From Cellvibrio sp. PSBB006 (lineage in GTDB: Bacteria; Pseudomonadota; Gammaproteobacteria; Pseudomonadales; Cellvibrionaceae), in contig NZ_CP021382.1 of assembly GCF_002162135.1 (NCBI RefSeq), positions 5,193,075 to 5,257,074 on the forward strand: a stretch of DNA of 64,000 bases, read 5' to 3'. The position numbers and the translations under genes were made by a program. This document shows, piece by piece, positions 4,296 through 16,533 of this stretch; positions within the stretch are counted from its first letter, which is position 1; each line of letters starts with the position of its first letter. The notes below the pieces were generated by a model. That model saw nothing but the letters and a program-made list of their open reading frames with translations. It was not told where the DNA came from and did no database searches.

Positions 4296-4458
4296 GGGCG
4301 CCGGTCGTTTATCTTCTTTATATCTCCGGCTATGCACGAAACCACGGATGTTACGGTTCTCGCCTGCGGGCTTTTACGTTACAATCGCGCGTTTTTATAT
4401 TTCGGCAGTAGATGCCGGTTGAAAATCGTTAACCTGATGACTTCATGAGGTGATTGTC

Positions 4459-4743
4459 ATGCCTATTTACGAATACCTGTGTCAATCCTGTAACCATGAA
4501 TTGGAAGCGATTCAAAAGCTGAGTGAAGCTCCCTTGGTGGAGTGCCCGGCTTGTGCGCAACCGACCTTGAAAAAGAAAATTTCAGCAGCTGGCTTCCGTC
4601 TGAAGGGCGGTGGTTGGTATGAAACCGACTTTAAATCCGGCAACAAGAAAAATCTGGCGGGCGAGGGCAGCAAGCCGGCTGGCTCCGGTGATACCAAACC
4701 GGCCGCCGCACCCGCCGCCAGCTCTACGCCGGCCAGTGCGTAA
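4459..4743 (+). CDS. FmdB-family zinc ribbon protein
   Basis: This small 94-residue protein starts MPIYEYLCQSC and carries two Cys pairs (CQSC and CPAC), the FmdB/CxxC_CxxC_SSSS zinc-ribbon signature. The core is followed by GFRLKGGGWYETDFK and then a low-complexity Ala/Pro/Lys tail. I chose the ATG at 4459, nine bases after GAGG; the in-frame GTG at 4450 would add three residues that the family lacks. Proteins of this family are often found directly upstream of aspS in pseudomonads, as here. The function is regulatory or chaperone-like but not established. Confidence 0.88.
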   Translation: MPIYEYLCQSCNHELEAIQKLSEAPLVECPACAQPTLKKKISAAGFRLKGGGWYETDFKSGNKKNLAGEGSKPAGSGDTKPAAAPAASSTPASA

Positions 4744-14130: not shown

Positions 14131-14883
14131 ATGTCGAAATACCTGTTAGCTGCTGTTCTGTTTATTGCAGTCCCTGCATCCCAGGCGCAAGTGCGGGTTG
14201 TTGAATCCTCGCCCCAGAGACCACTCTCTGGGGTGGCTCAACCGATTGAGTCGGTTAACGCTCAAACAAATGCGTATTTTGAACTCCAATCACTCAAGGA
14301 AGAAGTTTCTCTGCTACGAGGTTTGGTAGAGGAACAGGCTCACGAGATTTCTCGTTTAAAACAGCAGCAAATGGATAACTACCTTGATCTGGATAAACGC
14401 TTGAACGCCTTGTCTGGTGGTGGCAATCCTGCTCCTGTTGATACATCTCTTTTGCCACCGTCACCCGTTGAAAGCGCAGGTGGCGGTGTCTCTATTCCGA
14501 ATTCCAATAGTGCTCTCGGTGAAGCCGAGGTCTATGCTGCAGCATATAACCTGTTGAAACAGCGTCAGATTGATCCCGCCATTGCGGCCTTTAAAGACCA
14601 TCTCTCCCGTTTTCCCAACGGCGCCTATGCGGGCAATAGCTATTATTGGCTGGGAGAAATCTACCTGCTGAAGAATGAATTATCTGATTCGCGAAATTGG
14701 TTTACTCAATTGCTTGAGAAGTTTCCTAATGATCGCAAAGTACCTGATGCGAAGTTCAAGCTGGGTAAGGTATACCACTTGCTAGGGGAAGATGATCAAG
14801 GCAGAAAGTTGCTTGAAGATGTCGCTGCTGGCAGTGGTGATTCAGCTCGATTGGCTAAACAATATTTGCAGGAAAATTTCTAA
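14131..14883 (+). CDS. cpoB: Tol-Pal coordinating protein CpoB (YbgF)
   Basis: CpoB coordinates outer-membrane constriction with septal peptidoglycan synthesis through TolA and PBP1B. The 250 residues contain a signal peptide (MSKYLLAAVLFIAVPASQA), a trimerising coiled coil (about 50-95, LKEEVSLLRGLVEEQAHEIS), a Pro/Gly-rich linker and C-terminal TPR repeats (AYNLLKQRQIDPAIAAFKDH, NSYYWLGEIYLLKNELSDSR, KLGKVYHLLGEDDQ). It closes the tol-pal operon 19 bases after pal. Confidence 0.95.
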   Translation: MSKYLLAAVLFIAVPASQAQVRVVESSPQRPLSGVAQPIESVNAQTNAYFELQSLKEEVSLLRGLVEEQAHEISRLKQQQMDNYLDLDKRLNALSGGGNPAPVDTSLLPPSPVESAGGGVSIPNSNSALGEAEVYAAAYNLLKQRQIDPAIAAFKDHLSRFPNGAYAGNSYYWLGEIYLLKNELSDSRNWFTQLLEKFPNDRKVPDAKFKLGKVYHLLGEDDQGRKLLEDVAAGSGDSARLAKQYLQENF

Positions 14884-14923: not shown

Positions 14924-14959
14924 AAAAAAAGAGTGGGGCCAACCTTGCGGTTAGCCCCA
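14924..14959 (-). terminator. Intrinsic terminator on the minus strand
   Basis: Read on the minus strand, TGGGGCTAACC and GGTTGGCCCCA pair (11 bp, one G-T wobble) around a GCAA tetraloop, followed by CTC and seven T. The T-tract exists only on the minus strand (A-tract at 14924-14930), so the terminator serves a minus-strand transcript, most simply the candidate sRNA; it could also act on long trxB read-through. Confidence 0.85.
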
Positions 14960-15200
14960 TAGCTTTCCAGCTCCTCTCCAGGTTTTACTTTAATTGCTAA
15001 AGAATTTAGTAATTAAAACTCAGCGTCCTGCTGACCAACCTTGCTGTTCCACTCTTGTGCCTGTCCTTCCGTGTTTACAACGTCCTTATACGGCACACAT
15101 TCCTTTGTATTTCCTTAGATAGAGTGGGGCGCTTCCTTTGACCTTTCTTGGCCTGGGTACATCAATGTGTACTTCCTTGTTAAAAGCTATTCTCCAGAAA
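14924..15200 (-). ncRNA. Candidate CsrA/RsmA-sequestering sRNA (CsrB/RsmZ type)
   Basis: On the minus strand this 280-base stretch carries 13 GGA trinucleotides (plus-strand TCC between 14966 and 15195), several times the chance level. At least three lie in hairpin loops: TCAGC-AGGAC-GCTGA (15020-15034), AGCT-GGAA-AGCT (14961-14972) and CCT-GGAG-AGG (14973-14982). Others appear as AAGGA in single-stranded stretches. The 3' end is an intrinsic terminator on the same strand (14959-14934), an 11-bp stem with a GCAA tetraloop and then CTCTTTTTTT. Repeated GGA in loops plus a strong terminator is the hallmark of CsrB/RsmY/RsmZ RNAs, which titrate CsrA. The 5' end near 15200 is a guess, no clear promoter was found, and no sequence family match could be tested. 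Confidence 0.6.
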
Positions 15201-15462
15201 ATGAGGTGTCGCAGATAGTCGAGAAAATCGCTATTTTTTGTAGGAAATTGACTACAGGATGGCGCGGATATCGGGATCTTATCCGACGTGATTGTCATCA
15301 CTTTGGAATTTAAAGCTTTTGAAATCAAGCAATTAAGGTATGCCCGATAGGGAAAAGAGGATTGCTGATTGAGTGCGGCAGCGCACGTTATGTTAGTTGG
15401 AGGGGGCTTAAAGAGCGGTGAGGGCAGGATTGCCTCTGTAGAGAGACAATCCTGAGGAGCGT
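15201..15462. other. Non-coding stretch between candidate sRNA and trxB
   Basis: No convincing gene is present. A short inverted repeat CGGATA-N9-TATCCG at 15265-15285 lies about 65 bases upstream of the presumed sRNA start and could be an activator site. A second hairpin, AGGATTG paired with CAATCCT (15426-15453), lies 10 bases after the trxB stop and may stabilise or end the trxB mRNA, but it lacks a T-tract. Confidence 0.4.

Positions 15463-16533
<1,071 letters not shown>

Follow-up and report, generated by a model that had tools for sequence, protein, structure and literature searches.

A probable CsrA-sponge small RNA gene beside cpoB in Cellvibrio sp. PSBB006 and related RNAs in the Cellvibrionaceae

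The gap between cpoB and trxB

The window analysed here comprises 64,000 nucleotides and corresponds to the last 64 kb of the 5.26-Mb single-contig genome of Cellvibrio sp. PSBB006. Between trxB, which ends at 15463, and cpoB, which ends at 14883, the minus strand carries a stretch that the original prediction had described as an unannotated CsrB/RsmZ-like regulatory RNA. The features that we assign to this stretch and to its surroundings are compiled in Table 1.

Table 1. Features of the region between cpoB and trxB, with positions in the window and the basis of each assignment.
Feature	Position	Strand	Basis
cpoB, convergent neighbour, conserved landmark	14131..14883	+	name from the original prediction, homologues by search
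sRNA gene (putative), about 259 nt, 12 GGA	14924..15182	-	start placed by the putative -10 element and end by the terminator; GGA count, fold, cpoB-side homologues
Intrinsic terminator	14924..14959	-	stem of 11 pairs at 14959-14934, 4-base loop, then CTCTTTTTTT
Small hairpin AGCU-GGAA-AGCU	14961..14972	-	minimum-energy fold
Small hairpin CCU-GGAG-AGG, 3 pairs	14973..14982	-	minimum-energy fold
Hairpin UCAGC-AGGAC-GCUGA, CsrA-type site (predicted)	15020..15034	-	compensatory changes in relatives, fold
5' hairpin GGCC-AAGAAA-GGUC of the shared head	15140..15153	-	alignment A1 of 22 heads
Putative -10 element GAGAAT	15189..15194	-	alignment of 22 heads
18-base GacA/UvrY-type palindrome TGTAGTCAATTTCCTACA, starts near -74	15239..15256	-	box conservation in the genus, consensus likeness
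trxB, upstream neighbour, not kept beside the RNA	15463..16410	-	reading frame, locus comparison

Two statements about the neighbourhood had to be revised. The stretch had been said to have no protein gene ahead of it for 500 bases, which is wrong, as trxB, on the same strand, stops at 15463, only 263 bases from 15200. The gap between cpoB and trxB had also been named as the orthologous place to align in relatives; the conserved neighbour is cpoB and not trxB, which was found at only one of 22 loci, the window's own, when the 1500 bases beyond cpoB were inspected.

The presence of trxB upstream on the same strand, together with an 80-aa frame that overlaps the 5' part of the RNA, could also mean that the stretch is no free sRNA but a leader with a regulatory role or the remnant of a protein gene. 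We regard this as highly improbable, since the gap contains its own promoter module and terminator, both kept where trxB is absent, and since the longest closed frame measures 27 aa in the RNA of the window and 20-65 aa in those of the relatives.

The position of the putative -10 element, at 15194-15189, places the start of the RNA near 15182 and the start of the upstream palindrome (the box) near -74. In 14 of the 22 aligned copies the sequence of the element is GATAAT or CATAAT, and its bases A64, A66, A67 and T68 are invariant in all 22 heads of alignment A1, whose rows had been selected with a search pattern containing part of the head motif. A generic sigma-70 scan found no promoter at this place, which would fit an activator-dependent promoter.

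Density of GGA motifs

The claim that thirteen GGA motifs lie within about 230 bases of one strand was confirmed; on the minus strand, the first of them lies at 15195 and the last at 14966. The GGA at 15195 stands beside the putative -10 element and is therefore counted as promoter DNA, so that the RNA has 12 GGA and not 13. A first-order Markov model of the window predicts 3.4 GGA per 276 bases, and none of 5000 samples reached 13. Stricter backgrounds gave 6.1 expected GGA (P 0.0064) with a Markov model of the stretch itself and 6.0 (P 0.0016) with base shuffles of it. The stretch is the densest 230-base place for GGA on the window's minus strand. It shows one mark of the CsrA-sequestering sRNA class, a GGA content far above expectation in a putative non-coding RNA.

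A denser place exists on the plus strand at 2109-2385, with 14 GGA in 230 bases; it lies inside a 943-aa reading frame and is coding sequence, not an RNA gene.

Conservation beside cpoB in the genus

CpoB was found in all 21 Cellvibrio genomes, at 22 loci. At 15 of these, the window's own included, a box followed by a GGA-rich stretch and then by a terminator-type hairpin lies downstream of cpoB and convergent with it, the boxes having 0-4 mismatches to that of the window. The genome of Cellvibrio mixtus J3-8 is among those with this cpoB-side copy. The terminator-type hairpin precedes cpoB at all 15 RNA loci, at one of them (L064) without a clear T run. The other seven loci (L065-L070 and L078) have no box-like RNA and were left out of the GGA and loop counts given below.

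These cpoB-side RNAs measure about 217-376 nt, and little of their middle part can be aligned by eye. Together they contain 291 GGA against 130 expected from base composition, and 21 TCC against 31 expected; each relative has 11-26 GGA, compared with 12 here. The original prediction had staked its case on the conservation of the GGA loops in relatives, and what we find kept at 15 of the 22 cpoB loci is the position, the box, the GGA density and one GGA hairpin. This conservation, with the covariation described in the next section, leaves as the least probable of the readings that we considered the one in which the GGA cluster arose by chance and the terminator belongs to something else, even though GGA-rich places also occur in coding sequence, as at 2109-2385 of the plus strand.

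Predicted fold, hairpins and covariation

The 276-base stretch folds better than its dinucleotide shuffles (z -2.5, with 1 of 200 shuffles as good), and it ends, as had been predicted, in a strong intrinsic terminator on the same strand. An intrinsic terminator is a feature of CsrB and CsrC and another mark of the sRNA class.

The original prediction had further placed at least three GGA in the loops of small perfect hairpins. The AGGAC, GGAG and GGAA loops are indeed present in the minimum-energy fold, with the reservation that the GGAG hairpin has only 3 pairs and that, for the window sequence alone, 3 GGA in loops against 1.3 in GGA-keeping shuffles is not significant (P 0.14). In the predicted ensemble, the GGAs at 15176, 15136, 15050 and 14974 are mostly paired, and several others are mostly single-stranded. 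The 5' hairpin of the head has no GGA in its loop here, while in several relatives this loop contains AGGAAA.

The excess becomes clear when the 15 cpoB-side RNAs are taken together: 50 GGA lie in perfect hairpin loops, compared with 26.2 (sd 4.9) in shuffles that kept the GGAs in place, of which the highest of 1000 reached 41. A hairpin with an AGGAN loop recurs near the 3' end of the cpoB-side RNAs, 81-106 bases from the end, and was used for a covariation test on the 13 distinct versions among the 15 hairpins. Changes on both sides were seen in four of the five pairs (shuffles 1.9 on average, with 8 of 500 reaching 4), and the number of cells with both-side changes was 8 against 2.3 in shuffles, a value that none of 500 attained. 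Paired cells amounted to 86% against 75% in shuffles (0 of 500), a percentage biased toward structure because the hairpins were mostly picked for having a stem: 12 of the 15 had been selected for at least 3 stem pairs, and the remaining three lack a stem of that length. When the partner was slid by one column, pairing dropped from 86% to 45% or 22%. The number of further pair types was not unusual (6 against 4.8 in shuffles, 110 of 500).

As the 3' hairpins were found through their AGGA, the invariance of the loop motif follows by construction and is not independent evidence. Unlike this invariance and part of the pairing, the double changes are independent evidence for the predicted hairpin. 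GGA in hairpin loops, a further mark of the class, is thus found over the 15 orthologues as a set and, by covariation, for the 3' hairpin.

The GacA/UvrY-type box

The consensus of the UvrY/GacA site is given as TGTAAG-N6-CTTACA (PMC4682653, PMC4950607). The sequence TGTAGTCAATTTCCTACA agrees with it at 9 of the 12 fixed positions and differs at 3, so that, as judged by sequence, the 18-base inverted repeat of the class lies upstream of the putative RNA. A box with at most one mismatch is present in 19 of the 21 genus genomes, against 0 of 21 for a control with the reversed pattern. This box, which the original prediction did not mention, strengthens the case for a putative CsrA sponge.

We rejected the box as stand-alone evidence. 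With at most 2 mismatches allowed, the loose consensus is matched 4 times in the window, against an expectation of 4.2, and since such a match is not significant, it is the conservation of the box that counts. The exact box is no proof either, because 11 of 20 named loci that carry it have only 4-9 GGA in 442 bases. The remaining nine, of Cellvibrio or Saccharophagus, have 11-31 GGA; one of the nine is labelled only as Cellvibrionaceae and one only as Gammaproteobacteria. Among the 20, the stretch of L106 covers 77 bases only.

Copies elsewhere in the genus, family and order

In much of the genus, a DNA search with the box plus the RNA matched several sites per genome. From the 22 heads we built a model of the promoter plus the 5' end, R1, and searched 100 Cellvibrionaceae genomes with it. 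Matches were found in 59 genomes at E<=0.001 and in 68 at E<=0.1, a threshold at which about 10 chance matches per 100 genomes are expected because the E-values refer to single genomes. The matches at E<=0.1 cover all 13 genus genomes, 55 of the 87 other family genomes and 23 of 32 genera. In an order-wide sample, 6 of 194 genomes matched at E<=0.001, three of them from the Cellvibrionaceae.

The family hits were also rich in GGA. Among the best 30, of which 12 come from the genus and several of those belong to the model itself, 28 have at least 8 GGA in the 260 bases from the predicted start; the mean of the 30 is 12.3, compared with 1.4 on the antisense strand. All 18 hits from other genera pass this limit, with 9-18 GGA, and the two that fall below it, with 6 and 7 GGA, are both from the genus.

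Three R1 matches in a row, with starts 257-376 bases apart, occur in three genomes (G101 C1:1754738-1755535, G088 C1:805928-806675 and G069 C1:2896589-2897324) and are possible tandem genes for Csr-type sRNAs.

The 22 copies, which come from many different loci, align in the head, between the -10 element and GCGCC, and not in the rest of the RNA; such a conserved head is more than a plain string of GGA requires. It could therefore be argued that the RNA, although produced and able to bind CsrA, has another main task, for example pairing with mRNAs through its 5' head, with CsrA acting on the RNA and not the reverse. We consider this very improbable, because part of the head motif was built into the pattern that selected the rows of the head alignment and because the rest of the RNA keeps its GGA density while its sequence is lost, as would be expected of a sponge.

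CsrA and GacA in the host genome

Two CsrA homologues, both above the cut-off, were detected in the host genome (86.9 and 64.4 bits). The first starts with MLILTRRIGE and lies after a gene that by eye resembles an aspartokinase gene. The second and shorter CsrA-like protein (MLVLGRREQETINIY...; L147 at about 1130-1330, C1:4202171 of the genome) is encoded near an AlkB-like gene, also by eye.

The best UvrY/GacA match scored 277.1 bits, below the NCBIfam cut-off of 280, and is regarded as a gacA candidate; it precedes a frame that by eye is uvrC-like. The order gacA then uvrC is a known gacA arrangement. CsrA is thus accompanied in this genome by a GacA that is a candidate under the cut-off, the combination associated with this class of sRNA.

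Teredinibacter turnerae belongs to the same family. Its genome paper reports GacS, GacA and two CsrA homologues and, in the available part of its text, mentions GacA-controlled small RNAs only in general.

Comparison with catalogued sponges

The search with the Rfam covariance models that the original prediction had proposed gave no match to the stretch. Among the 4227 families of Rfam 15 searched, none was found in the window at the gathering threshold, and no Csr/Rsm family matched the stretch at E<=10. The threshold was likewise not reached by PrrB_RsmZ, RsmY and CsrC, nor by the other Rfam 15 families. No family reached its threshold on 18 genus loci, and 15 named loci gave no Csr/Rsm match, with only tmRNA and C4 appearing in two of them. 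The CsrB model (RF00018) matched 12 of the 21 genus genomes at E<=1 and none over its cut-off, the best score being 37.3 bits against a cut-off of 71, at another type of locus (G006:C153). As a control, 1 of 14 control genomes exceeded the cut-off, in a list of matches that begins with E. coli. The lack of an Rfam match places the RNA in a functional class and not in a catalogued family as modelled.

CsrB and CsrC of the enterobacteria resemble the RNA in their many GGA and their intrinsic terminator. They also share the 18-base inverted repeat for UvrY upstream (PMC4682653). They differ in that no RF00018 match exists here, and in that the csrB repeat is centred at -183/-182 (PMC4682653), whereas our box starts near -74. 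The RsmY, RsmZ and RsmX RNAs of Pseudomonas come closer in this respect, as they also have an 18-base GacA site, located at -75 for rsmY (PMC4950607) and at about -74 here. They further resemble the RNAs described here in that many relatives of the host have several copies per genome. The four Rsm RNAs of P. brassicacearum have 6-10 GGA (PMC7911923), compared with 12 in about 259 nt for our RNA. Unlike the Pseudomonas RNAs, ours has no Rfam match, has its own conserved head, and is recognized by its own model, R1, at E<=0.001 in no more than 6 of the 194 genomes sampled from the order.

Halomonas sp. McH1-25 (L094) has an identical 18-base box followed, by eye, by a short stretch with GGA hairpins and a terminator-like hairpin. 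This stretch lies at about 4340-4585 on the minus strand; 9 GGA are found in the 442 bases after the box, and no Rfam match of the Csr/Rsm kind exceeds the threshold.

Proposed function

The reading of the stretch as a CsrB/RsmZ-like regulatory RNA is supported by its conservation beside cpoB, by the box and by the copies in the genus and the family. Based on these comparisons of sequences, we estimate a probability of about 93% that the minus-strand stretch is an sRNA gene whose product works like CsrB or RsmZ, as a CsrA sponge. This kind of RNA is well known in other bacteria; the version described here escapes Rfam and recurs in many relatives.

According to the model that we propose, phosphorylated GacA (UvrY), activated via its sensor, would bind the palindrome at 15256-15239 and activate the promoter with the putative -10 element at 15194-15189. 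The RNA would be made without being translated and would end at the terminator, 14959-14924. By analogy with the class, CsrA dimers would then bind to several of the 12 GGA, those accessible in loops or in single-stranded parts, and CsrA would be lifted off the leaders of its target mRNAs.

Sponges of the Csr/Rsm kind can change the entire life style of a bacterium, and Cellvibrio serves as a model for the degradation of plant polysaccharides. It is conceivable, if rather unlikely, that the Cellvibrionaceae possess CsrA sponges of a separate and uncatalogued class, in which the promoter plus the head has been duplicated to one or several copies per genome, some of them in tandem, with the head kept because it has its own task (as a fixed high-affinity start for CsrA docking, or in RNA-RNA contact) and with the whole set controlling polysaccharide-degrading enzymes. 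A title search of the open-access literature, including the terms CsrA, CsrB and GacA, gave no paper on a Csr sRNA in Cellvibrio; a computational study of CsrA-regulating RNAs was reportedly published in 2006 by Kulkarni and co-workers and may hold an earlier prediction for a Cellvibrio relative. With a defined RNA, a box and a list of copies, it can be tested directly whether GacA-Csr controls the Cellvibrio enzyme arsenal, and a new Rfam family could be built from the alignments.

Other box-like sites in the PSBB006 genome

Boxes with at most 3 mismatches were found at five places of the host genome, the window's included (2 for the reversed control), and only the one in the window is followed by a GGA-rich stretch. 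The same holds for R1, which at E<=10 gave 6 rows, only the window's then being GGA-rich. After the ppnN-like gene (identified by eye), the host has no copy, though a locus of a relative (L004) carries one there. The RNA of the window is thus the only one detected in its own genome, where copies with a divergent head and box could be missed; some boxes in relatives have 5 mismatches.

A near-perfect palindrome, TGTAGGAGATTTCCTACA, precedes a small reading frame at C1:4701473 (L035, 1501-1518), with no GGA-rich RNA. A second exact box, at C1:729028-729045 (L031, 1501-1518), also lacks a GGA-rich RNA. Its neighbours, judged by eye, are a gene whose end is TonB-like and one that encodes a lipoprotein-like repeat protein, so that GacA may control the mRNA there directly. 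Finally, a box-like site, TGTAGGCAATATCTCACA, with a weak R1 match (E 0.002), is located near C1:3219066 (L145, about 767-784) and stands ahead of a small protein frame with ACAAGGAUCAUG in its leader, which makes this a possible GacA-driven and CsrA-bound mRNA.
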